52,365 bases of DNA from Eximiradius proteiniborus. Lineage in GTDB: Bacteria > Bacteroidota > Ignavibacteria > Kapaibacteriales > UBA2268. Below the pieces are notes generated by a model, which ran no database searches, was not told where the DNA came from, and worked only from the letters and a program-made list of their open reading frames with translations. The translations under genes and the position numbers were made by a program. The stretch is from the NCBI GenBank assembly GCA_026415495.1, contig JAOAGZ010000009.1, forward strand, positions 1 through 52,365, given 5' to 3'. This document shows, piece by piece, positions 21,181-49,976 of the stretch (position 1 is its first letter; every line of letters starts with the position of its first letter).

Positions 21181-21654
21181 ATGCTTACAGCATTAATCAT
21201 TGTTGCCATTTTAGCTGGCATAGCAATAATTTTTGCTGCATTGAGTATTATCGATGCAGTAAAATCTTATAAAATGTTGGCTGAAAATGCACAAAAAAAC
21301 CTTGATAAAATCACATCTGACTCAAACGAGTTAAAAACAAGATTAATTCAATCATTAGATGAATTATCTGTTGTTAAAAGTAAGCTAATAGTTTTGTTAG
21401 ATGAAGTTGTAGACTTGAAAAAAGATATTTCTACTTCTCTTCAAAGTGTGGATAGTTTAGCGAAAACAATAGACTACTCTGCACAAAACGTCGGTGAAAA
21501 AGTAGAAATTCTATTTAAGAAACTCGAACCTTTAGAAAATCTATCAAAAGCACTTTATTCGATGATAGCAAGCCCTGTTAATAATTCTATTACTTTTTTT
21601 AATGCAACAAAAAAAGCAATTAGCACTTTTACCGGTAAGTTATTTGGAAAATAA
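21181..21654 (+). CDS. Membrane-anchored coiled-coil protein (DUF948-like)
   Basis: The 157-residue protein has one N-terminal transmembrane helix (LTALIIVAILAGIAIIFAALSI, residues 2-23). The remaining part is helical with heptad-like spacing (MLAENAQKNLDKITSDSNELKTRL and later VDSLAKTIDYSAQNVGEKVEILFKKLE). The layout matches DUF948-type proteins, which often neighbour YtxH genes. Function is unknown. It is preceded by AGGTGAGG as ribosome-binding site. A strong terminator follows. Confidence 0.75.
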   Translation: MLTALIIVAILAGIAIIFAALSIIDAVKSYKMLAENAQKNLDKITSDSNELKTRLIQSLDELSVVKSKLIVLLDEVVDLKKDISTSLQSVDSLAKTIDYSAQNVGEKVEILFKKLEPLENLSKALYSMIASPVNNSITFFNATKKAISTFTGKLFGK

Positions 21655-24337: not shown

Positions 24338-24643
24338 TTATTGATTGTCGGTCTCTTTTGGTATTTCAAAAGTTAATTTACCTTCATAAATTTCTTTCAT
24401 AGCAAGGAATGTAGGCTTCGGAAGTTTATCAAAATCACGGCTAATAGAAATTTGGTCTAAATTTGCACCTTCAGATTCGTCAGTGTTTGGAATAATGTCT
24501 GCCATTTTATTGTTAAGTTCATTCTTGATATCGTCATTTATTTGTCTGGCTCGCATTCCCATTGCAACAATTGATTGATAAATTGAACCTTTTTCGGATT
24601 CTTTCATACGGACAACGACAGGATTGATAATGTATTTTTCCAT
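24338..24643 (-). CDS. rpoZ: RNA polymerase omega subunit (Bacteroidota-type)
   Basis: The 101-residue protein fits the omega/Rpb6 family: GSIYQSIVAMGMRARQINDDIK corresponds to the conserved 'niYeavvviakRArQin' helix. The C-terminus (PTFLAMKEIYEGKLTFE) matches the conserved 'pt..Al.Ei..Gki.' end. Omega helps assemble RNA polymerase and, in proteobacteria, forms part of a ppGpp site. A strong ribosome-binding site GGAGGG precedes the ATG. Just upstream is a 16-base palindrome (24650-24665). It is a single-gene unit and the 3' end faces the ogg2 operon. Confidence 0.8.
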   Translation of the reverse strand: MEKYIINPVVVRMKESEKGSIYQSIVAMGMRARQINDDIKNELNNKMADIIPNTDESEGANLDQISISRDFDKLPKPTFLAMKEIYEGKLTFEIPKETDNQ

Positions 24644-24766: not shown

Positions 24767-25153
24767 ATGAAAAAACTATATTATTCAATTAGTGAAATTT
24801 CTAAAATATTAGACGAAGAACAATATATTTTAAGGTATTGGGAAAAAGAGTTTGATTTTTTGAAGCCACGTAAAAATCGTGCAGGAAATAGAATATATTC
24901 AGAAAAGGATTTGCAAACGCTAAAATTAATAAAATCCTTCATTCGTGAAGAAAAGTTAAGCGTTAAAGAAGCAAACAGTAAGCTGAAAAATCTAATAAAA
25001 TCAAATGAAATCGAGAAAGTTGTTTCCAAGTCCATTTACGAGGGCTCGGAACCGAATTCCACAAATAAAAAATCTAATAAAATTAATAAAGAATTGAAGC
25101 AAGAATTGCTTTCTGCTTTGCGCGATATGCTCAATTATCTAAAAAGTAGCTAA
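24767..25153 (+). CDS. MerR-family transcriptional regulator
   Basis: The 128-residue protein has an N-terminal MerR winged helix-turn-helix: YSISEISKILDEEQYILRYWEKEFDFLKPRKNRAGNRIYSEKD. The helix LKLIKSFIREEKLSVKEANSKL follows. The short Lys/Asn-rich C-terminus has no recognisable ligand-binding domain and no metal-binding cysteines. The pattern matches the small MerR proteins common next to housekeeping genes in this phylum group, whose targets are unknown. It is divergent from rpoZ and overlaps the convergent mtgA by four bases. Confidence 0.88.
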   Translation: MKKLYYSISEISKILDEEQYILRYWEKEFDFLKPRKNRAGNRIYSEKDLQTLKLIKSFIREEKLSVKEANSKLKNLIKSNEIEKVVSKSIYEGSEPNSTNKKSNKINKELKQELLSALRDMLNYLKSS

Positions 25154-25839
25154 GCTTTAGGTATTGCAACAGAATTCATACGTCCCATTATCCAAGCTAC
25201 TCTTCTATTTATATACGGAGTCGGACGGGCAGGCGACCATCGATGTGGATTTGGCAGAACAGCAGCCAAAAGTGCAGCTTCACGTTTTGTTAGATTTCGT
25301 GCACTTTTGCCCCAGAAATGTTGAGATGCAGCTTCAACTCCATACAAACCATCACCGAATTCAATAACATTAGCATATACTTCAATAATGCGCTTTTTGC
25401 CCCATATATTCTCAATCAGAATAGTAAAATACGCTTCCAAGCCTTTTCTAATGTAGTTTCGCCAGTGGTATAAAAAAGTGTTTTTGGCAGTTTGCATAGA
25501 AATTGTGCTTGCACCGCGTTTCTTTTTACCTTTGTGAATTTCATTATATCGTTTTGCAGCTTCAATAGCTTTGCGGTCAAAACCATCATGTCTCATAAAT
25601 TTAGCATCTTCGGCAGCAACTACGGCTCTGAAAAAATTTGGAGAAATATCTTCGAAGGCTACCCAATCTTGATTAATACCAACGAATTTTCCTTCGAAAA
25701 CGCCTTCAATTGTTCGTATTATCATAGCAGGAGTAATAAATGGATTAATCCATTTTGTCAGCACAACTGAAACAATTGAAGAAGCAAAAAACAGTGCTAT
25801 GCTGTAAAATAAATATTTGATGATTTTTTTGAACAACAT
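25150..25839 (-). CDS. mtgA: Monofunctional biosynthetic peptidoglycan transglycosylase
   Basis: MtgA (GT51) polymerises lipid II into glycan strands in the periplasm. The 229-residue protein has one N-terminal membrane helix (YLFYSIALFFASSIVSVVLT). The conserved GT51 motifs are all present: AAEDAKFMRHDGFD with the catalytic Glu, KKRGASTISMQTAKN, KKRIIEVYANVIEFG and AAQHFWGKSA-like sequence (ASQHFWGKSARNL). There is no transpeptidase domain. CAAAAATA at 25867-25874 (TATTTTTG leftward) is a possible -7 box. The end overlaps the MerR gene. Confidence 0.95.
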   Translation of the reverse strand: MLFKKIIKYLFYSIALFFASSIVSVVLTKWINPFITPAMIIRTIEGVFEGKFVGINQDWVAFEDISPNFFRAVVAAEDAKFMRHDGFDRKAIEAAKRYNEIHKGKKKRGASTISMQTAKNTFLYHWRNYIRKGLEAYFTILIENIWGKKRIIEVYANVIEFGDGLYGVEAASQHFWGKSARNLTKREAALLAAVLPNPHRWSPARPTPYINRRVAWIMGRMNSVAIPKA

Positions 25840-36797: not shown

Positions 36798-37550
36798 ATG
36801 ATTGCATTGATCACCGGAGCATCATCCGGAATTGGGAGGGCTTGTTGCTATGAATTTGCATCGAAAGGTGTAGATTTAATTATTTTAGCACGCCGTAAAG
36901 AAAAACTCAATGAAATTGCTTCAGATATCCCAAGTAAGTATCATGTAAAAGTGCTTTCCTATGTTTGTGATGTGAGGTATTTCCCGCAGGTGAAAGATAC
37001 CATAGATAGCTTACCGCCGGAATGGAAAGCAATTGATGTATTAATTAATAACGCTGGATTGGCAAGGGGATTAGAGAAAATTCAGGATGGGTTTATTGAA
37101 AAATGGGAAGAAATGATTGATACGAATATAAAAGGATTATTATATGTAACTCGTTGTGTGTTGCCGTTAATGATTGAAAGAAATTATGGAGATATTATTA
37201 ACATTGGTTCAATTGCAGGACACGAGGTTTATCCCGGTGGTAATGTTTATTGTGGCACAAAATTTGCTGAACGTGCTATCTCAAAAGGAATGACAATTGA
37301 CACTAATGGGTATAATATTCGTGTATGTAGTATAGATCCCGGTATGGTTGAAACTGAATTTTCGTTAGTAAGATTTGATAATGATGCTGAACGTGCTGCA
37401 AATGTTTACAAAGGACTTGAAGCACTGAATGGAGAAGATATTGCTCGAATTGCATATTTCATTGTGCAGCAACCACGTCATGTGAATATACAAAACATTG
37501 TGTTGACACCGACACAGCAGGCAACTGCAACTATTGTTTCAAGGAAATAA
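36798..37550 (+). CDS. Short-chain dehydrogenase/reductase (YdfG-like)
   Basis: The 250-residue oxidoreductase has the Rossmann nucleotide-binding motif TGASSGIGRAC, the structural motif NNAG, and the catalytic Tyr-x3-Lys (VYCGTKFAERA) after IGSIAGHE. The ending (ARIAYFIVQQPRHVNIQNIVLTPTQQA) is typical of YdfG-like enzymes that use NADP(H) on 3-hydroxy acids or serine. Substrate is not known here. It is followed after 20 bases by an M20 peptidase in the same direction. Confidence 0.94.
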   Translation: MIALITGASSGIGRACCYEFASKGVDLIILARRKEKLNEIASDIPSKYHVKVLSYVCDVRYFPQVKDTIDSLPPEWKAIDVLINNAGLARGLEKIQDGFIEKWEEMIDTNIKGLLYVTRCVLPLMIERNYGDIINIGSIAGHEVYPGGNVYCGTKFAERAISKGMTIDTNGYNIRVCSIDPGMVETEFSLVRFDNDAERAANVYKGLEALNGEDIARIAYFIVQQPRHVNIQNIVLTPTQQATATIVSRK

Positions 37551-40882: not shown

Positions 40883-42239
40883 TCACAATAGATTGAGATA
40901 TTTTATATTTTTTTTCTTTATAGCACTTTTATTAGCAAATTATCAATCTCTTGAAGCAAAAAAGAAGAAAAAAGTTACTAAGAAATGCCCACCAATTTCA
41001 CACACGTTTATTCAGGATACTATTCTCGGCGAAGGAATATATTTTCAAAGAGCAATAGTCGATTATAATTGCAATAAGCACGACACCTATATCATAAAAG
41101 CACATTTGAAAGAATGTAATTGTACTCCAACTGTTATAAAAGCAAAAGAGAATATTATCGGATTAGATAAATTACAAAACATCATTCAATATTATGATTC
41201 TTTGTATAAAGATAATATTTATGGGGCGGTAAATGCTAATTTTTGGCGAGCATATAGCAATTTCCCGATTGGTCCAGTTGTGATTAACGGTGAAATCATT
41301 CAACTTCATAGTTACAAAGAATGGAGTTCTATTTTTTTTGATGCATTGGGTATTCCATTTATAGACAATTTTAAAATTTCAGGCGAATTAATATTAAACA
41401 AGAAAAACAAATTTAAAATTCAAGACGTAAATAGAAGAACAGATTCAACGGGAATAGTAATATACAATAAATATAGTGGTTCGCAAATTCCTGCAATAAA
41501 TACTCAAAAAATTGAAGAAATCATTGCTCAAATAAAAGAAAATTCTGAAGAAGTTATATATAACGATTCTACAGAGGCAGAATTCAACCTTGAAACAATG
41601 AAAGAAGAATATATTAAGACAGAATTACTGAATTCAATTGAATTTGCGACCCCCAAAATTAGTGTAGAATATTTAAATGAGCCATCCATTAATTCTGAAA
41701 TTATTTGTAAAGTTATTGAGACTGGCTCTAACGTGATGAGTGTGCCAAAGAATGGCTGTATAATTTCGTTGGGACAGGATTTTATAATGAGGGAATTGCC
41801 AAATGTTGGAGATACAATAAAACTTAAATTTTTCACAAATGTTCATAAAAAGCAAATTTTCACAGATGGAGTTTGTGGCACACCTCGATTAGTTCGTAAC
41901 GGGATTGCTGAGCACGAAGCGGTAAAGGAAGGTTCGAAAAGTAAAAGATTCATTCAAAAGAATTTGCCAAGAACTGCAATTGGTTACAACAAGAAAAGAG
42001 ATATTCTATATTTTGTTGTCATCAAACCGACTAATCAATCAGAAAAAACAAGTGGAGCTAATTTAGCGTCATTATCCAAAATAATGAAATATATTGGTTG
42101 TTATGATGCAATGAATTTAGATGGCGGTGGTTCGACAATAATGGTAATAGACGGAAAAAATGTAATAAATAAGGAAAATCCCTATTCCTCACGGAGAATA
42201 TCCGTGGGAGTAGGGATCAAAAGTATAGGCAATAATTAA
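40869..42239 (+). CDS. Phosphodiester glycosidase (NAGPA-domain) protein
   Basis: The 456-residue protein has an N-terminal membrane or signal segment (YFIFFFFIALLLANYQ). The C-terminal half has the NAGPA-domain pattern: GVCGTPRLVRNG, then PRTAIGYNKKRDILYFVVI and the signature AMNLDGGGSTIMVIDG with NPYSSRRISVGVGI at the end. Known members remove terminal alpha-GlcNAc from phosphodiesters in lysosomes; bacterial ones act on surface polymers or exopolysaccharide. The first 170 residues include the EGIYFQRAIVDYN segment also typical of this family. It is co-transcribed with the TPR gene and convergent with fadD. Confidence 0.85.
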   Translation: MNHYNHNRLRYFIFFFFIALLLANYQSLEAKKKKKVTKKCPPISHTFIQDTILGEGIYFQRAIVDYNCNKHDTYIIKAHLKECNCTPTVIKAKENIIGLDKLQNIIQYYDSLYKDNIYGAVNANFWRAYSNFPIGPVVINGEIIQLHSYKEWSSIFFDALGIPFIDNFKISGELILNKKNKFKIQDVNRRTDSTGIVIYNKYSGSQIPAINTQKIEEIIAQIKENSEEVIYNDSTEAEFNLETMKEEYIKTELLNSIEFATPKISVEYLNEPSINSEIICKVIETGSNVMSVPKNGCIISLGQDFIMRELPNVGDTIKLKFFTNVHKKQIFTDGVCGTPRLVRNGIAEHEAVKEGSKSKRFIQKNLPRTAIGYNKKRDILYFVVIKPTNQSEKTSGANLASLSKIMKYIGCYDAMNLDGGGSTIMVIDGKNVINKENPYSSRRISVGVGIKSIGNN

Positions 42240-44044
42240 TCTTCGTTATACATTCGATTAATGATTTCAGCGTAATTTCTTTCGACAATATGTCTTTTTA
42301 TACTCATTTTAGGGCTTAGTTCACCATTTTCTACACTGAAAGGTTTGCTAAGCAGTGAAAATTTTCTAATTTTTTCGAATTTAGATAAATCTTTTTGATA
42401 AAAATCAATTTCTTTCTTGATGTGTTGAATAATTTTCTCATTAACTATAAGTTCTTCTTCGCTATTATATGGTATACCGAGGTCGGAAGCCAATTGTTTA
42501 AGTTGTTCGAAATTTGGTGTAAGCAAAGCAGTACAATATTCTCTTCTCTCACCTATAAGAACGCACTGGTCAATGTATTTGCTTTGAGAAAGAAGATTTT
42601 CAATAGGTTGAGGTGCAATATTTTTGCCACCACTCGAAACAAAAATATTTTTCTTTCTGTCAGTAATTTTTAAATTTCCTTTTTTTGTAAAAACAGCAAT
42701 GTCGCCTGTATAAAGCCAGCCATCTGCATCAATTGCTTCTTGTGTTGCTAATTCATCTTTCCAATATCCTTTCATTACATTAGGTCCTCTAACTAAAATT
42801 TCACCGTCATCAGCCAGCACAACATCGACATTATCTAATGGCGTTCCGATAGTCCCTAACTCCGGGTTATCCTCTCTATTAAAAGAGACTACGGGGGAAG
42901 CTTCAGTTAGCCCGTAACCTTCGTAAACTTTGATGCCCATAGCCCAGAAGAATTCCGCTACATCGAGCGGTAATGCTGCGCCACCTGAAACCATTCTGCT
43001 AAGCCTACCACCAAGCTTTTCACGTAACTTGGAAAAAACAAGTTTATCAGCTAAATTATACTGTGTTTTTAAAATTGGGTTATTTTTGTTATTCAAACTA
43101 CTTCTAACATATTTAACTCCAACAGAAACCGCCCAGTTAAACATTTTTTTCTTTATTGGAGATTCTTTGTCCATTGCGAAATAGATTTTTTTCTTAATTG
43201 TTTCCAACAATTTAGGAACTGTTGTCATAAAAGTAGGTCGCACTTCTTTTATGTTGGAAGCAACAGTATCAATGGATTCAGCTAAAACAATTTCCGATCC
43301 ACCAACAAAAAATGCATAAAAGCCAGCAGTACGTTCGTAAGCATGGCACAAAGGCAAATAAGATAGAGAGACATCGCTACTAACATCCCCACCAAATGCT
43401 TTTAGTGATGCAAGCGCATTAGAAACTACATTTTTGTGAGAAAGCATAACACCTTTGGGGTTGCCAGTAGTGCCACTTGTATAAATTATTGTCAGCAAAT
43501 CATCTTCATTAACTTTGTTGCAACAATCAAATACTATTTCATCTCTTTCTTGTTTATTACGAAGAGATGCTCCGCGCTCAATAAGTTCTGAAATAGATCG
43601 CACAAAGACATTTTTCTTTTCATAATCATCATTCATTACAATAATATGTCTCAATGAAGAAATATTATCTTTAAATTCCAGAACTTTTTTAAGCTGGAAA
43701 TTATTAGAGACAATTATTGCTGAAACTTCGCTATGTGAAAAAATGTATTCTTCTTGCTTTGCAGTAAGAATCGGGAAAATTGGGACATCTATTGCACCAA
43801 TAAGTGATATTGCAAAAGAAGAAATAATCCATTCGATACGATTTTCCGATGCAATCCCTATTCTATCACCTTTATGAATACCAAGCTCCATAAAAGCAAG
43901 AGCCAAACTAAAAACCTTATCTCTTAGCTGGTCATAATTTAAAGCAATCCATTCGTCATTTTTTTTATATCGAAAGCAAACTTTAGTATTTCCCCATTTA
44001 TCACAAGTTTTGTTGAACATTTCAGGAATTGTTAGATATTTCAT
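42236..44044 (-). CDS. Long-chain fatty acid-CoA ligase (AMP-binding)
   Basis: The 602-residue enzyme activates fatty acids with ATP and CoA. The ATP/AMP signature TIIYTSGTTGNPKGVMLSH, the acyl-adenylate motif EGYGLTEASPVV, WLYTGDIAVFTKKGNLKITDRKKNIFVSSGGKNIAP and the C-terminal Lys region KMSIKRHIVER are all present. It resembles long-chain acyl-CoA synthetase FAA1/FadD15-type proteins without a membrane helix. It starts 16 bases after the lplA stop, consistent with an operon. The last four bases overlap the convergent glycosidase gene. Confidence 0.94.
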   Translation of the reverse strand: MKYLTIPEMFNKTCDKWGNTKVCFRYKKNDEWIALNYDQLRDKVFSLALAFMELGIHKGDRIGIASENRIEWIISSFAISLIGAIDVPIFPILTAKQEEYIFSHSEVSAIIVSNNFQLKKVLEFKDNISSLRHIIVMNDDYEKKNVFVRSISELIERGASLRNKQERDEIVFDCCNKVNEDDLLTIIYTSGTTGNPKGVMLSHKNVVSNALASLKAFGGDVSSDVSLSYLPLCHAYERTAGFYAFFVGGSEIVLAESIDTVASNIKEVRPTFMTTVPKLLETIKKKIYFAMDKESPIKKKMFNWAVSVGVKYVRSSLNNKNNPILKTQYNLADKLVFSKLREKLGGRLSRMVSGGAALPLDVAEFFWAMGIKVYEGYGLTEASPVVSFNREDNPELGTIGTPLDNVDVVLADDGEILVRGPNVMKGYWKDELATQEAIDADGWLYTGDIAVFTKKGNLKITDRKKNIFVSSGGKNIAPQPIENLLSQSKYIDQCVLIGERREYCTALLTPNFEQLKQLASDLGIPYNSEEELIVNEKIIQHIKKEIDFYQKDLSKFEKIRKFSLLSKPFSVENGELSPKMSIKRHIVERNYAEIINRMYNED

Positions 44045-44060: not shown

Positions 44061-45041
44061 TTAGAACATTGCAGAAAGAATATCATTTTGATTAATATTA
44101 AAGAAGAAATCATCTAAATTAAAATGGCTTAAAACTTGTTTTACCTGATCTTCCCTATGTTGAATAGAAACGAATGCCTCTTCGATTTCAGAAATATCTC
44201 TATGAGTGAAGAAATCGCCATAAAATCTTAATCTTTGAATTATGCCGTTTTCAACGAACATAGAAACTTCGAGAGTGCCGCCTTCGGTTCTCACAGATTT
44301 GGAGAAATTATATTCAGGAGAATAGCCAAAATTCCATTCCCAAGTGGAATATTTATTTTCAACTAATTGGTTGATTTTTTGGATGTCTTCATCAGTTATT
44401 TCATAAATTTGAGCATCTTCATACATTTCAAGTATATGATTAAACACAAGATTGATGAATTCAAGCACAGTCAGAGGCGCCTGCAAATGTTCAGAAACAT
44501 TGGTAACTCTACTGCGGACAGATTTGACTGCTTTATCAGTATATTTAACATCTTTTACATTTAGAGCTTGGGTTAAATCCGACATTTTAGCTGAAAATAA
44601 AATAGTTCCGTGATGGAGAATTCTATTTTTATAGACGTGTTCGGCATTACCCGAAAATTTTTTCCCATCTATTGTTAAATCATTTCTACCTTCAAATTTT
44701 GCATTAACACCTAATTTGAGAAGAATATCTAAAATAGGTTGCACGTATTTTCTGAAATCTACAAGTTTTTCGCTTTCGCCTGTTTCAATAAAAGTAAAAT
44801 TAATGTTACCTAAGTCGTGAAAAACTGCTCCACCACCAGTCATACGGCGAACAACTTTAATGTTGTTTTCCTTTACGTAGTCATAATTAATCTCGGCAAG
44901 TGTGTTTTGATGTTTTCCGACAATAATAGCAGGCGAGTTTCTCCAAAGCATAAAAATATTTTCATTAAAATTATTGAAAAAGTATTCTTCCGCAGCGAGA
45001 TTGAAGTATGGTTCAGTTGAATTATTAAGAATACAAAGCAT
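44061..45041 (-). CDS. lplA: Lipoate-protein ligase A
   Basis: LplA attaches free lipoate, via lipoyl-AMP, to E2 and H-protein lysines. The 326-residue protein has the conserved catalytic core (RRMTGGGAVFHDLGNINFTFI), the substrate lysine region KFSGNAEHVYKNRILHHGTILF, and an accessory C-terminal domain (about residues 245-326). The ribosome-binding site GAGG lies five A before the ATG. A strong hairpin (45042-45080) would bury this site. It lies between ribD (upstream) and fadD (downstream). Confidence 0.93.
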   Translation of the reverse strand: MLCILNNSTEPYFNLAAEEYFFNNFNENIFMLWRNSPAIIVGKHQNTLAEINYDYVKENNIKVVRRMTGGGAVFHDLGNINFTFIETGESEKLVDFRKYVQPILDILLKLGVNAKFEGRNDLTIDGKKFSGNAEHVYKNRILHHGTILFSAKMSDLTQALNVKDVKYTDKAVKSVRSRVTNVSEHLQAPLTVLEFINLVFNHILEMYEDAQIYEITDEDIQKINQLVENKYSTWEWNFGYSPEYNFSKSVRTEGGTLEVSMFVENGIIQRLRFYGDFFTHRDISEIEEAFVSIQHREDQVKQVLSHFNLDDFFFNINQNDILSAMF

Positions 45042-45080
45042 TTTTTCCTCAATTTTTTCAATAAAAACAATGAGGAAAAA
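45042..45080 (-). promoter_or_regulatory. Hairpin that can hide the lplA ribosome-binding site
   Basis: In the leftward mRNA TTTTTCCTCA (45080-45071) is perfectly complementary to TGAGGAAAAA (45051-45042), whose GAGG is the lplA Shine-Dalgarno. The 19-base interior holds a smaller stem TTTTT-ATTG-AAAAA. No U-tract follows, so it is not a terminator. The fold would block translation start. Whether a ligand or protein changes it is unknown. Confidence 0.5.
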
Positions 45081-45119
45081 CGATTAAAGAATGAAATTAT
45101 TTAAAACCTTATAAATCTA

Positions 45120-46217
45120 TTAATTAACTGTATATAAAGCGTGAATATCTTGACCACAGTTAGACAAAGCTTTCAATTTTAATTTAAACGATTCTTTTAA
45201 ATAATTTATCTTATATTTATCAAAAGAATGAATACCATTGCCTATTATGATAGGAGCAATAAAAAGATGAAGTTCATCTATCATTTGAGACGCAGCAAAA
45301 TTCGAAAGGAGTTCAGCACCACCTTCCACTAAAATTGAAGAAATACCAAGTTCAGTGAAAGCATATAAGGCACTGGGAATATTTAATTTACCAGTATCAT
45401 TTACTTCAACAGGAACAAGCTTAATCCCCGCCAATTTAAGAGTATCCGCTTTTCTTGTTTGCAGGGAATTTGGACTACAACATACATAGGTATATTCACG
45501 ATAATCTTCCTGGAAAATATTTAAATTTAATGGTAAAGTAAGATCTGTATCAAATACAATTCGTTTCGGATTAATGCCTTCAATATCTCTAACTGTCAGC
45601 AAAGGATTGTCTAATAAAGCAGTTTTTTTACCGATGGCTACAGCATCAACCTCGTTTCGCAAAATATGAACTTTACGACGACTTTCTTCGGAAGTAATCC
45701 ATTTTGATTCACCTCGATTTGTTGCTATACAACCGTCAAGAGATTGTCCAACTTTAGCAATAACATAAGGCAAACCTGTATTCATTTGTTTTGAAAAAAA
45801 TCTATTTATCCATTTGCATTCTTCTTCTAATACACCAACTTCGACTTCAATACCTGCATCCTGCAGTTTTTGAATGCCAGAACCAGAGACATCAGGATTT
45901 GGGTCAATCATACCAACTATGACTTTAGAAAACCGCTTTTCAATAATTAAATCAACACAAGGTGGAGTTTTGCCGTAGTGCGAGCAAGGTTCTAAATTCA
46001 CTACCAAAGTGCACCCTTCGAATGAATCGCGATTTGCATTATGGATAGCCATCACTTCTGCGTGAGGTCCGCCGAATTCTTCGTGCCATCCCTCGGCAAT
46101 TATTTGACCATTTTCGACAATAACACATCCAACGCGTGGATTAGGGCTAACCTTGCCAGTTCCTCTCAGAGCAAGTTCAATTGCTCTTTTCATCGCTGAT
46201 TTGTCTGTAAAAAACAT
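45120..46217 (-). CDS. ribD: Riboflavin biosynthesis deaminase/reductase RibD
   Basis: RibD deaminates and then reduces the pyrimidine intermediate in riboflavin synthesis. The 365-residue protein has an N-terminal zinc deaminase domain (FGGPHAEVMAIHNA, then LEPCSHYGKTPPCVDLIIE) at residues 40-95. The C-terminal NADPH-dependent reductase domain begins at about residue 150 (VIAKVGQSLDGCIAT) and contains SILVEGGAELLSNF. Both functions are complete. It starts two bases after the lipoprotein gene stop and lies 78 bases upstream of lplA. Confidence 0.96.
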   Translation of the reverse strand: MFFTDKSAMKRAIELALRGTGKVSPNPRVGCVIVENGQIIAEGWHEEFGGPHAEVMAIHNANRDSFEGCTLVVNLEPCSHYGKTPPCVDLIIEKRFSKVIVGMIDPNPDVSGSGIQKLQDAGIEVEVGVLEEECKWINRFFSKQMNTGLPYVIAKVGQSLDGCIATNRGESKWITSEESRRKVHILRNEVDAVAIGKKTALLDNPLLTVRDIEGINPKRIVFDTDLTLPLNLNIFQEDYREYTYVCCSPNSLQTRKADTLKLAGIKLVPVEVNDTGKLNIPSALYAFTELGISSILVEGGAELLSNFAASQMIDELHLFIAPIIIGNGIHSFDKYKINYLKESFKLKLKALSNCGQDIHALYTVN

Positions 46218-46219
46218 AT

Positions 46220-46957
46220 CTATTCCAAATAAATTGTTTTAACGATTGATAAATGATTAGGTTGCAATGGTAGAACAAAATTTACTAAATAATCACCGCT
46301 TGATAATTCATTTCCCCAATTGTCAATTCTATTCCATTCAATCGAATAATATTGATATTCATACTTTTCTTTCGGCAATAATTCACCCACAACAGTCAAA
46401 TAGTTTTTGTTAAAGTTTGAGTTCCAAATTAATTTCCCTTTTTTGTCGGATATTTCAATTCTCAATCTCTCGGAACCCGGAAAATAAAGATGTTCTTCTC
46501 TATCTTGCAATTTTATCAAAAATAATCCAAACTCATATCCAGAAGTCGTTTTCTTAGCAACTGGCAAAAGAACAAAATTATCATTCAAAAACTTCTTATC
46601 ATCAAATATAATGCGATTCTTTTTTAGAATAAAGGAATTTTTTTCATAAAGAGATGAATTAATTTTTAATATTGAAAACTCTGTAATATCAAATGATTTG
46701 CTTTTCGGTAGAACTGAATAGTTTGGAGTATAAACAAAAGATTGATTATCCGGAAGATGGAAAGTTTTCTGATGAATTGTAGAAGGATAGTCTTCAGAAA
46801 AATATGATTTCCAATATAAGATAACTGAATAAGTTTCAGTAGAATCAAGAAAATAATAATTATCTTGAAACTGTTGAGAATTTGGTATGGAGCAACAGCT
46901 TTGCAACAGGAATTCTAAAAAACACAGAATAATAATATTGAATTTTAACAACCTCAT
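46220..46957 (-). CDS. Hypothetical lipoprotein
   Basis: The 245-residue protein has a lipoprotein signal peptide (CFLEFLLQSCCSIP, acylated Cys near residue 21). No domain is recognised. The mature part is rich in beta strands with Tyr, Asn and Ser, e.g. GYEFGLFLIKLQDREEHLYFPGSE and IWNSNFNKNYLTVVGELLPKEK. The ending GDYLVNFVLPLQPNHLSIVKTIYLE looks like a FlgD/Ig-like strand pair. I chose the ATG at 46957 because the upstream extension to 47035 does not look like a signal peptide. It is the first gene of the leftward run with ribD, lplA and fadD. Confidence 0.7.
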   Translation of the reverse strand: MRLLKFNIIILCFLEFLLQSCCSIPNSQQFQDNYYFLDSTETYSVILYWKSYFSEDYPSTIHQKTFHLPDNQSFVYTPNYSVLPKSKSFDITEFSILKINSSLYEKNSFILKKNRIIFDDKKFLNDNFVLLPVAKKTTSGYEFGLFLIKLQDREEHLYFPGSERLRIEISDKKGKLIWNSNFNKNYLTVVGELLPKEKYEYQYYSIEWNRIDNWGNELSSGDYLVNFVLPLQPNHLSIVKTIYLE

Positions 46958-46995: not shown

Positions 46996-47027
46996 AAACG
47001 TGAAGATAACATATTATCTTCACGTTT
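46996..47027 (-). terminator. Strong terminator after the M16 peptidase gene
   Basis: AAACGTGAAGATAA (46996-47009) pairs with TTATCTTCACGTTT (47014-47027) over 14 bases with a four-base loop, followed by TCTCTTTAG in the leftward direction. It separates the M16 gene from the lipoprotein-ribD run. Confidence 0.82.
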
Positions 47028-47042
47028 ATCTCCAAGTAAAAA

Positions 47043-49976
47043 CTAATAGTTAAAAATTTCTTTTAAAGAAAGTTCTTTTATTTCACCAATTTGTCGCAAT
47101 ACATTATAATCAAGTGAACTTTTGTTAGCTAAAATTAAAAAGATATATTTCTTATTCTTAATATGTGTGTTAAAGAAATCATCTAATTCATTGATAGACA
47201 TAGTTTTAGTTTTTTCATAAATATCTTTTCTAATATCGTAGTTAATACCTTTATCTTTGTTGGATAAATAAGTCCAGAAAATAGAAGCTTTGGTAATTCG
47301 TTCGGATTCAATTTTTCTCATTACTCCAGTTTTTGATTGTTCAAATTGTGCAGTCGCTTTTGGCATATCATTCAGAAGCGAAACAAGTGCATCAGTTGCT
47401 ATTTTCAATTTATCAGGCTGTGTGCCTACAAAACCAAATACAAAATGTGAAAGATCGGGTTTTGCAGGAGTTGAAAAAGCAGAGAAAGCAGAATATGCAA
47501 GAGCGCGAGCCTCACGAATTTCCTGAAATACAATTGAAGAAAGACCACCGCCAAAGTATTCTCCAAAAATCCTTGAATAAGGCAATAAGTTTTTATCGAA
47601 TTTGCAATCTTTCGACATAAAAAGTACGTTTGATTGCACCATATCATAATCTACAACAAAAACATAATTTTTATCAAAGTTTCTTTCTTTGTAAGAAATT
47701 GGTTTTGGATAATCTTTGAGCTTATTAAATTCAAACTTATGAATTTTTTCTATAGCTTTTTGAGCAAATTCAGCATCTTTGCCATAGTAAAATATGTAGT
47801 GCTTGTAGCTTAATAAATTTTTGATAATATCTGTGAGTTCTTTGGGATTAATTTTGCGAAGCTCTTCTTCGGACAAAATGTTTGTGAATGGGGATTTGCC
47901 ATCATACATTGCATAAGAAAACATTGCTCCCCATAAAATCGAATTTTTGTCAAGTTTAGCATCATTTCGAGATTTAATAATTCCATCAACAAAATCATTG
48001 TATATTTGTTGGTCGGGTTTAGCATTGGCTAGAGTGTGTTCGAGAAGCTCTAAACCTTTCTCCAAGTTTTGTTTTAGTCCACTAATAGAGATGTAACTTC
48101 TGTCATCGGAAGTGGAAACACTTAGATTAATACCAAGTTTGTAGAATTCTTTGCTTAAATCTTGAGGTGAATATTTAGTTGTACCAATGTAAGGTAAGTA
48201 ATCAACAGCTAATTCTGTTTTTAGATCGTGATTTTTACCCATATCAAGAATAAAAGAAAGCTGGAAGAAGTCATTAATTTTATTTTGAATATAATTGAAT
48301 TCTATTCCGTTTAATAGTTTTTTGCGTATAATATCTTTGTCGAAATCAAGGAAAACAGGTTTAAGTGGTGCCACTTCCATAGCCATAACTTTTTTATAAA
48401 AAGCAGATTGGGCATCTCTATTCATTTGAACAGGTGTAATTTCAGGTTTTTCCACTTTAACAATATTTTCATCTTTTCCTATTCTTTTGAACACACATAC
48501 ATAATTATCTTTGTAGTATTCATTTGCAAACTTAACAATATCCTGTTTAGTAATTTTTTCGAGTTCTTTGATAAAAGTATAATATTTCAACCAGTCTTCT
48601 TTCATAGTAAAGCTAATAGCAAAAGTATGTGCAATTCCATTCGTCTCTTCTGCTCTCATTCTCGATAGTTTGATATTATTTATTATTGCTTCAATTAGCC
48701 AATCATCAAATTCACCTTTTTTAATTTTTTCAATCTCGGCTAAAATCAATTGCTTTAATTCTTCCAGTGATTGTCCTTCTCTTGGTGAAGCAGAGATACT
48801 GTGTACTGAATAATCAATGTTTTTATCCAAGTAAGTAGAAGCACCTAATACTTTCTGCGATTTGATTAAATCTAAATCCATAAGTCCGGCTTTACCATTA
48901 CTTAATATCTGGTCGAGAATATATGCTTTCATCAACTCAGGATCGTTATATCCCATTAACCTATAACCAAGAACCAAAAATTCCGGTTGAGGACCGAAAA
49001 CTTCTTTTAATATTGGCTTAGTGATTGGATCTTCTTTAGGATGCTGAATAACCGGAGGATTGCCTTTTTTTAGTTTTCCGAAATATTTATCAACGAGTTG
49101 AATAGTTTGTTCAAAGTCCAAATCACCAGAAAGGCTCATTGCCATATTATTAGGAACATAAAAATTATTGAAATAGTTATGAATATTTACCATAGAAGGA
49201 TTTTTGAGATGTTGTGGATTTCCAATGACTGTTTGGGTACCATAAGGATGCTTTTTGAACATAGCAGAATTGAATGCTTCTTCGACGCGAGCTTCATCTT
49301 CGTCTTGATACATATTAAATTCTTCGTATACCGTTTCGAGTTCAGTATGGAATAGTCGTAAAACTAATTCACCAAATCTTTCACTTTCAATCGTAAGCCA
49401 ACGTTCAAGTTCGTTTGCAGGAATGTCATTTATATATACAGTTCTTTCGGTAGAAGTATATGCATTTGTGCCTTTAGCACCAATTCCGGAAACCATTTTA
49501 TCGTATTCGCTCGGAATAGCATACTGAGCAGCAATTTGGGAAACGCTATCAATCATTCTGTATATACGTTTTTTTTCGGAAGGATTATCTGTTGCTCGGT
49601 GAAGTTCGAACAACTTAGAAATCTCATCCAATAAAGGTTTTTCTTTGTCCCAGTTGGCTGAACCGATTTTTGATGAACCTTTGAACATCATATGTTCAAG
49701 ATAGTGTGCAAGTCCGGTAGTCTCTTTTGGATCATAAGTGGAACCGGCACGAACGGCAATATAAGTTTGAATTCGTGGTTCATCCTTCAATTGCCTCAAA
49801 AACACAGTAAGACCATTATTTAAAGTATAAATTCGGCAATTAAGATGATCGCCTTCGACATATTTGTATTCGTATCCATTCTTATCTTTGGCGAACTTCC
49901 ATTGATATTGAGCAAAGGCAATATTAGTAAAAACAAAAAGGACAAGAAAAGAAAACACAAAAGAAAACTTTTTCAT
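47043..49976 (-). CDS. M16-family zinc metallopeptidase (two-domain, secreted)
   Basis: The 977-residue protein has a signal peptide (SFVFSFLVLFVFTNIAFAQ) and the M16 inverted zinc motif HYLEHMMFKGS (HxxEH). The distal Glu ligand is in ETVYEEFNMYQ. A second, inactive M16 half follows from about residue 500. The layout is that of periplasmic pitrilysin-like peptidases of Bacteroidota, which form a clam-shell that degrades peptides. It follows moxR by 61 bases on the same strand and ends at a strong terminator. CAAAAATA at 50012-50019 may be its -7 box. Confidence 0.94.
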   Translation of the reverse strand: MKKFSFVFSFLVLFVFTNIAFAQYQWKFAKDKNGYEYKYVEGDHLNCRIYTLNNGLTVFLRQLKDEPRIQTYIAVRAGSTYDPKETTGLAHYLEHMMFKGSSKIGSANWDKEKPLLDEISKLFELHRATDNPSEKKRIYRMIDSVSQIAAQYAIPSEYDKMVSGIGAKGTNAYTSTERTVYINDIPANELERWLTIESERFGELVLRLFHTELETVYEEFNMYQDEDEARVEEAFNSAMFKKHPYGTQTVIGNPQHLKNPSMVNIHNYFNNFYVPNNMAMSLSGDLDFEQTIQLVDKYFGKLKKGNPPVIQHPKEDPITKPILKEVFGPQPEFLVLGYRLMGYNDPELMKAYILDQILSNGKAGLMDLDLIKSQKVLGASTYLDKNIDYSVHSISASPREGQSLEELKQLILAEIEKIKKGEFDDWLIEAIINNIKLSRMRAEETNGIAHTFAISFTMKEDWLKYYTFIKELEKITKQDIVKFANEYYKDNYVCVFKRIGKDENIVKVEKPEITPVQMNRDAQSAFYKKVMAMEVAPLKPVFLDFDKDIIRKKLLNGIEFNYIQNKINDFFQLSFILDMGKNHDLKTELAVDYLPYIGTTKYSPQDLSKEFYKLGINLSVSTSDDRSYISISGLKQNLEKGLELLEHTLANAKPDQQIYNDFVDGIIKSRNDAKLDKNSILWGAMFSYAMYDGKSPFTNILSEEELRKINPKELTDIIKNLLSYKHYIFYYGKDAEFAQKAIEKIHKFEFNKLKDYPKPISYKERNFDKNYVFVVDYDMVQSNVLFMSKDCKFDKNLLPYSRIFGEYFGGGLSSIVFQEIREARALAYSAFSAFSTPAKPDLSHFVFGFVGTQPDKLKIATDALVSLLNDMPKATAQFEQSKTGVMRKIESERITKASIFWTYLSNKDKGINYDIRKDIYEKTKTMSINELDDFFNTHIKNKKYIFLILANKSSLDYNVLRQIGEIKELSLKEIFNY

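Follow-up and report, generated by a model that had tools for sequence, protein, structure and literature searches.

A hairpin over the ribosome-binding site of T4 lysozyme (gene e) blocks translation from read-through mRNA, an arrangement that requires a transcript start site inside the hairpin. Other leaders that occlude the Shine-Dalgarno site include translational riboswitches and fourU RNA thermometers, and one fourU leader lost its heat induction once two G-U pairs opposite the site had been exchanged for G-C pairs (PMC10586365). Structure in the start region is documented, in general terms, as lowering initiation (PMC6847099), and standby binding of ribosomes on an unpaired leader is documented in PMC3936740. 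Here we characterize a hairpin in the leader of lplA, the lipoate-protein ligase gene of an uncultured genus of Kapabacteria, which we read, with moderate confidence, as a putative genus-limited static brake on translation initiation and not as a switch. A limited literature search found no earlier description of an lplA leader hairpin.

Genomic Context of lplA

The window, a 52,365-nt stretch from Eximiradius proteiniborus, is a single contig from an assembly (G000) of 2.2 Mb and 83% completeness. The following genes surround the hairpin:

45120 to 46217, minus strand: ribD, 5′ neighbor of lplA (TIGR00326, 327.9 bits vs. a cut-off of 156.35)
44061 to 45041, minus strand: lplA, lipoate-protein ligase of 326 aa (TIGR00545, 430 bits vs. 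a cut-off of 280; PF21948 and PF10437)
42236 to 44044, minus strand: AMP-binding acyl-CoA ligase (fadD-like), 3′ neighbor of lplA (PF00501)

Since all three genes lie on the minus strand, the relevant hairpin RNA is the reverse complement of the sequence as numbered. The fadD-like ligase met no NCBIfam equivalog cut-off among the 25 matches listed. The gap between ribD and lplA measures 78 nt, with 39 nt from the ribD stop codon to the stem. Our genus sample consisted of the four available genomes (G000-G003), all from one uncultured genus and including that of the window. The order ribD, lplA, acyl-CoA ligase and a single LplA match were found in each of the four. Among 110 lplA loci from two lplA searches, a set in which several genomes occur twice, some matches are distant and flanks reach 1.5 or 2.5 kb unless cut short by a contig end, only the four genus genomes have ribD next to lplA.

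Elsewhere in the window, a terminator-like hairpin of 14 pairs with a T-rich tail (46996-47027, minus strand) follows the gene at 47043-49976, which, judging by its motif, is presumably an M16-like peptidase. For the gene after it, the ORF tool's TTG start at 47035 probably lies too far upstream: an ATG at 46957 opens a lipoprotein-like signal.

Structure of the Leader Hairpin

The leader of lplA contains four elements, listed from 5′ to 3′ in the RNA:

45081 to 45087, minus strand: TTAATCG directly 5′ of the stem, invariant in four species and unpaired in the model
45071 to 45080, minus strand: 5′ (left) arm TTTTTCCTCA, read from 45080 to 45071, with 9 of 10 columns invariant in four species
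45052 to 45070, minus strand: loop with an optional inner stem, 19 nt (18 nt in three relatives)
45042 to 45051, minus strand: 3′ (right) arm TGAGGAAAAA, holding the GAGG Shine-Dalgarno site and an A-rich spacer up to the ATG

An earlier note on this DNA had described a perfect 10-pair stem at 45042-45080, and both the bases and the stem (45080-45071 with 45051-45042) are as it stated. The GAGG of lplA begins at -9, inside the right arm, and the ATG (45041-45039, minus strand) follows the stem immediately. The start itself appears secure; no in-frame ATG, GTG, or TTG lies upstream within the stem in the ORF list of the window, and homologs at loci L005, L006, L008, L009, and L010 begin at the same methionine. 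The note was also right that the hairpin is not a terminator: an intrinsic terminator was rejected because no U-run follows the stem (the right arm is succeeded by ATGCTT), and the element was absent from a terminator scan.

The 50-nt piece from 45085 to 45036 was predicted to fold at -12.3 kcal/mol (z -3.76), with one of 200 dinucleotide shuffles equally stable. In a 130-nt context the stem was kept in the minimum free energy (MFE) structure and, minus one end pair, in the centroid, the total energy of that longer piece being ordinary (z -0.80; 40 of 200 shuffles equally good). The leaders of G000-G003 gave fold energies of -12.3, -8.5, -12.7, and -13.2 kcal/mol, respectively, and predicted mean pairing of the AGGA tetramer of 0.98, 0.78, 0.98, and 0.97. 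Freeing GAGG at 37°C would cost 7.7-10.8 kcal/mol across the four species, modeled as ensemble energy differences. The inner 5-pair stem of the earlier note was recovered in the G000 MFE structure, one of its pairs being U-G, but is not kept in register among the relatives: one pair falls at a gap in three of the four sequences and another is broken in two. The hairpin over the lplA Shine-Dalgarno site is thus confirmed as sequence, and its fold is predicted.

Use of Shine-Dalgarno Sites in the Genus

Published Bacteroidia ribosomes do not use Shine-Dalgarno sites, according to PMC9976891, and we therefore tested their use in this genus. The sample comprised 268 ORF-based ATG genes from ~398 kb of G003, with starts that are guesses (ATG only, at least 120 aa). 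AGGA, GGAG, or GAGG stood at -16 to -4 in 88 of the 268, as compared to nine in the control interval from -40 to -28, and the position profile peaked at -9 to -12. The Shine-Dalgarno site is used in this genus. The 16S matches in G000 end at model position 707, short of the 3′ end of the 16S rRNA, and no 16S match was found in G001-G003. Both the predicted pairing of the site and the use of such sites by the genus bear out the statement that the stem covers the lplA Shine-Dalgarno site.

Transcripts Expected to Carry the Hairpin

The Bacteroidota-type -7 element has the consensus TAnnTTTG, as given in PMC6847099. This motif is enriched 20-80 nt upstream of G003 genes, and in the window it is carried by upstream regions such as those of the genes at 24338-24643, 25150-25839, 36798-37550, and 47043-49976. 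The genus combines the motif with Shine-Dalgarno use, a mix unlike that of published Bacteroidia. With a -7 model built from 62 G003 sites, the best match in the lplA leaders fell at -77/-78 in all four species, directly after the ribD stop codon:

45112 to 45119, minus strand: candidate lplA -7 element, TAGATTTA in G000, TAGATTTG in G001, and TTAATTTG in G002 and G003

Its scores ranged from 4.9 to 9.9, against 90th and 95th percentiles of 5.7 and 6.7 for shuffled sequence and a median of 3.0 and 75th percentile of 8.7 for real genes; the G000 match (4.9) falls inside the shuffled range. Since this candidate promoter lies 5′ of the hairpin, both ribD read-through transcripts and those from an lplA promoter would carry the structure. 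For a transcript start inside the hairpin, the only promoter matches within the loop, at -25, are weak (scores of -5.3 to 1.5).

Frequency of Comparable Stems

The lplA leader had the most stable fold of the 88 Shine-Dalgarno genes sampled in G003 and was alone in having a Watson-Crick stem of at least four pairs over the tetramer. Among shuffled G003 leaders, stems of at least four Watson-Crick pairs over the site arose in 223 of 5,280 and stems of at least 10 in two of 5,280; when lplA's own upstream sequence was shuffled, stems of at least 10 arose in 13 of 20,000. The shuffles, like the Fisher test reported below, were chosen after the hairpin had been seen, and their figures describe a pre-selected site. 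For a single window, a perfect stem over the site is well beyond chance, and the 223 shuffles set against lplA alone suggest that Watson-Crick stems over the site may be avoided at other genes. When G-U pairs were allowed, stems of at least 10 over the site occurred in five of the 88 genes (lplA included) and in 35 of 1,760 shuffles; by this looser measure, therefore, the lplA stem is less special. Pairing probability of the site averaged 0.54 over the 88 genes, with at least 10 other genes reaching 0.94. An altered lplA leader lacking the CCTC complement, intended as an unpaired control, still paired the site at 0.98 (-8.6 vs. -12.3 kcal/mol) and was not a clean control. In a genome this rich in A/U, predicted pairing probability does not by itself set lplA apart. 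After that of lplA, the most stable start-region fold shared by three species belongs to the gene at 21181-21654 (plus strand) of the window, at -10.5, -11.1, and -11.1 kcal/mol.

These figures bear on a possible, if somewhat doubtful, explanation in which the hairpin is accidental: a U-rich leader in the ancestor of the genus would have had CCTCA opposite TGAGG, and the stem would have persisted by descent with little effect on expression. Arithmetic from the shuffles, taking ~550 such genes, yields ~0.2-0.4 perfect stems expected per whole genome, a rate that leaves room for such an accident. Against it, lplA ranks first in leader stability within the syntenic window in G000 (of 48 genes, hand-picked from the ORF list with no trained gene caller), G003 (of 44), and G002 (of 35), and the other sampled genes with a site all lack a Watson-Crick stem over it. 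Moreover, regardless of how it arose, a perfect stem there should be a physical obstacle to initiation.

Conservation within the Genus

A stem pairing the site is present in all four genus genomes, with 9-10 contiguous pairs in three and an internal A-A mismatch in one. Eight of the 10 pairs never vary, and the other two are each broken in one species: in G001, a T to A change at 45076 breaks one pair, and in G002, a T to C change at 45051 opens the pair that closes the loop. No two-sided change occurs in the 10 pairs, and hence no covarying pair was found among the four aligned leaders. The 78-base gap contains 16 variable columns, of which 11 fall in the 39-base 5′ segment (all within 45088-45118), one in the 10 bases of the left arm, three in the 19 of the loop, and one in the 10 of the right arm. 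The left arm (1/10) did not vary significantly less than the 5′ segment and loop together (14/58; Fisher one-sided p 0.30). The two broken pairs with no compensatory change, and the unexceptional conservation of the left arm, are consistent with an accidental stem. In addition, when random substitutions were made at six of the 45 free sites of the G000 leader, a fold of -12 kcal/mol or better was kept in 26% of trials, and persistence of the stem over this divergence is therefore weak evidence. The stem has been kept, but four close species cannot show selection.

Conservation is not confined to the paired bases, also taking in TTAATCG on the 5′ side and a portion of the loop. Such conservation of unpaired flanking bases, together with the presence of a candidate promoter in the ribD-lplA gap, could be accommodated if the inverted repeat and its flank were an operator or promoter part in the DNA and the RNA stem were incidental. 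We regard this as quite improbable, as the arms lie 28-29 bp apart from center to center with a 1-base indel between species, a geometry not expected of a rigid dimer site; at -77/-78 the candidate -7 element is outside the stem and the match in the loop is weak; and the block occurs once per genome, no second exact copy having been found in the genus genomes. As for the loose 6-pair pattern TTCCTC-GAGGAA, 53 of 54 family genomes contain it, which marks it as common background.

Distribution outside the Genus

The nearest lplA outside the genus (L007/L083) encodes an LplA 73% identical over 266 residues and keeps GGAG, but lacks the stem. Loss of the stem in relatives that retain the site, which the earlier note had singled out as evidence against its proposal, is accordingly seen at this distance and not within the genus. 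Among 78 lplA leaders (of 80 loci, L071 having no start at the match and L117 being too short), nine have a Shine-Dalgarno tetramer; three of these are the genus, and none of the six others has the hairpin. A covariance model of the four sequences, applied with strict filters, recovered the element in four of 54 family genomes, all from the genus. On 74 sources, from which lplA loci L019-L030 and L111-L128 were excluded, it gave seven matches, five of them weak and the remaining two being the element and its complement strand. Weak matches in or just before lplA starts occurred at L006 (E 0.11), L101 (E 0.41), and L109 (E 7.1); in that of L006, four of the 10 pairs are non-standard, including those at the Shine-Dalgarno site. 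In the leaders and genomes examined, the hairpin thus appears to be genus-limited and to occur at lplA only, a restriction that is also in keeping with an accidental origin.

Lipoate Metabolism and Possible Regulation of lplA

LipB was found in none of the four genus genomes, and neither was LipA above its cut-off (two matches of 21-22 bits vs. a 310-bit cut-off), in a search that excluded LipM, LipL, and LipS1/LipS2-type enzymes and in which two of the four assemblies are only ~80% complete. By comparison, 2-oxoacid dehydrogenase E2 and GcvH-type proteins were found in all four. With these acceptors present, one LplA in each genome, and neither LipB nor an above-cut-off LipA, LplA therefore seems to be the only route of lipoyl attachment, and the genus looks, from its gene content, like a lipoate scavenger that depends on LplA. 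Sole-route status lends appeal to the notion of a regulated lplA but does not count as evidence for it.

The idea in question is that lplA would be held off until a trans factor (a protein, small RNA, or helicase) or a ligand opens the hairpin, for instance in response to lipoate supply. Besides the gene content just described, in which LplA is the only lipoyl-attachment enzyme found beside its E2 and GcvH-type acceptors, it draws on a stem strong enough to require help in opening and on the conserved block that reaches past the paired bases. Nonetheless, we consider it unlikely: no aptamer-like structure is seen, the block has a single exact copy in each genus genome, and visual inspection shows no obvious upstream sequence that could pair with the left arm instead. 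A riboswitch of known family was rejected in particular, since Rfam gave three matches at the lplA region, all far below gathering scores and outside the ribD-lplA gap, and over the whole window only a tRNA reached threshold. A narrower form of the idea, in which a trans factor or small RNA reads the TTAATCG-stem-loop block, opens the lplA switch, and so tunes the ligase to lipoate supply in lipoate-scavenging Kapabacteria, strikes us as improbable.

An RNA thermometer that opens on warming is hardly credible. Its appeal lies in an architecture like that of fourU leaders, with a U-run opposite the Shine-Dalgarno region. However, the G000 pairs over the site are all Watson-Crick, three of them G-C, and in each of the four species GAGG is predicted to remain paired at 0.95 or above as far as 70°C, with which constrained ensembles agree. 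Regulation by temperature, which the earlier note had offered as an example, is thus not supported by the model, and its suggestion of a metabolite fares no better, with no Rfam family and no covariation. Its broader proposal that the hairpin regulates lplA translation is plausible as far as a lowered output goes, but finds no support as regards a regulatory switch.

A Proposed Static Brake on Initiation

The static brake remains our preferred reading. In the lplA mRNA leader, a hairpin of 10 pairs would enclose the Shine-Dalgarno site along with the spacer as far as the start codon. It would form on ribD read-through transcripts and, judging by the position of the motif, also on those from a candidate promoter at about -77. 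The 30S subunits would have to open the hairpin, or wait at the unpaired U/A-rich stretch upstream as a standby site. Initiation at lplA would then be slow and largely independent of ribD translation, the ribD stop lying 39 nt before the stem; for the same reason, translational coupling to ribD was judged unlikely. A leader peptide also looks unlikely: by eye, a 1-nt indel between species throws the short TTG frame across the loop out of register. The effect would be to hold down, statically and in this genus only, the output of a catalytic enzyme presumably needed in small amounts. On the other hand, the benefit of slowing the sole lipoyl-attachment gene found is not obvious. A real brake would provide a clear case of an occluded start site, acting on that sole gene, in a lineage related to the Bacteroidota that, unlike published Bacteroidia, does use Shine-Dalgarno sites, and it would be relevant mainly for modeling expression in uncultured Kapabacteria.

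Comparison with Known Systems

Like fourU RNA thermometers, the lplA leader has a U-run paired with the Shine-Dalgarno region. In contrast to them, its stem is perfectly Watson-Crick, with three G-C pairs over the site and no G-U weakness, and is predicted to remain unmelted at growth temperatures. As in the gene e type, the lplA hairpin would block translation from read-through mRNA; the best lplA promoter match, however, lies 5′ of the hairpin, so that both transcripts would fold. Translational riboswitches share with lplA the occlusion of a Shine-Dalgarno site in an mRNA leader, whereas the lplA leader has no visible aptamer or Rfam match and spans just 39 nt from the ribD stop codon to the stem. 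The resemblance extends to Shine-Dalgarno-sequestering leader hairpins at large, in that the lplA stem likewise covers the Shine-Dalgarno site and spacer of one gene, is likewise free of a terminator U-run, and is predicted to slow initiation. It differs from them in being known from sequence alone and, in the data examined, from one genus and at lplA only. In sum, the lplA hairpin belongs to an ordinary, familiar class of elements, encountered here at a new location.
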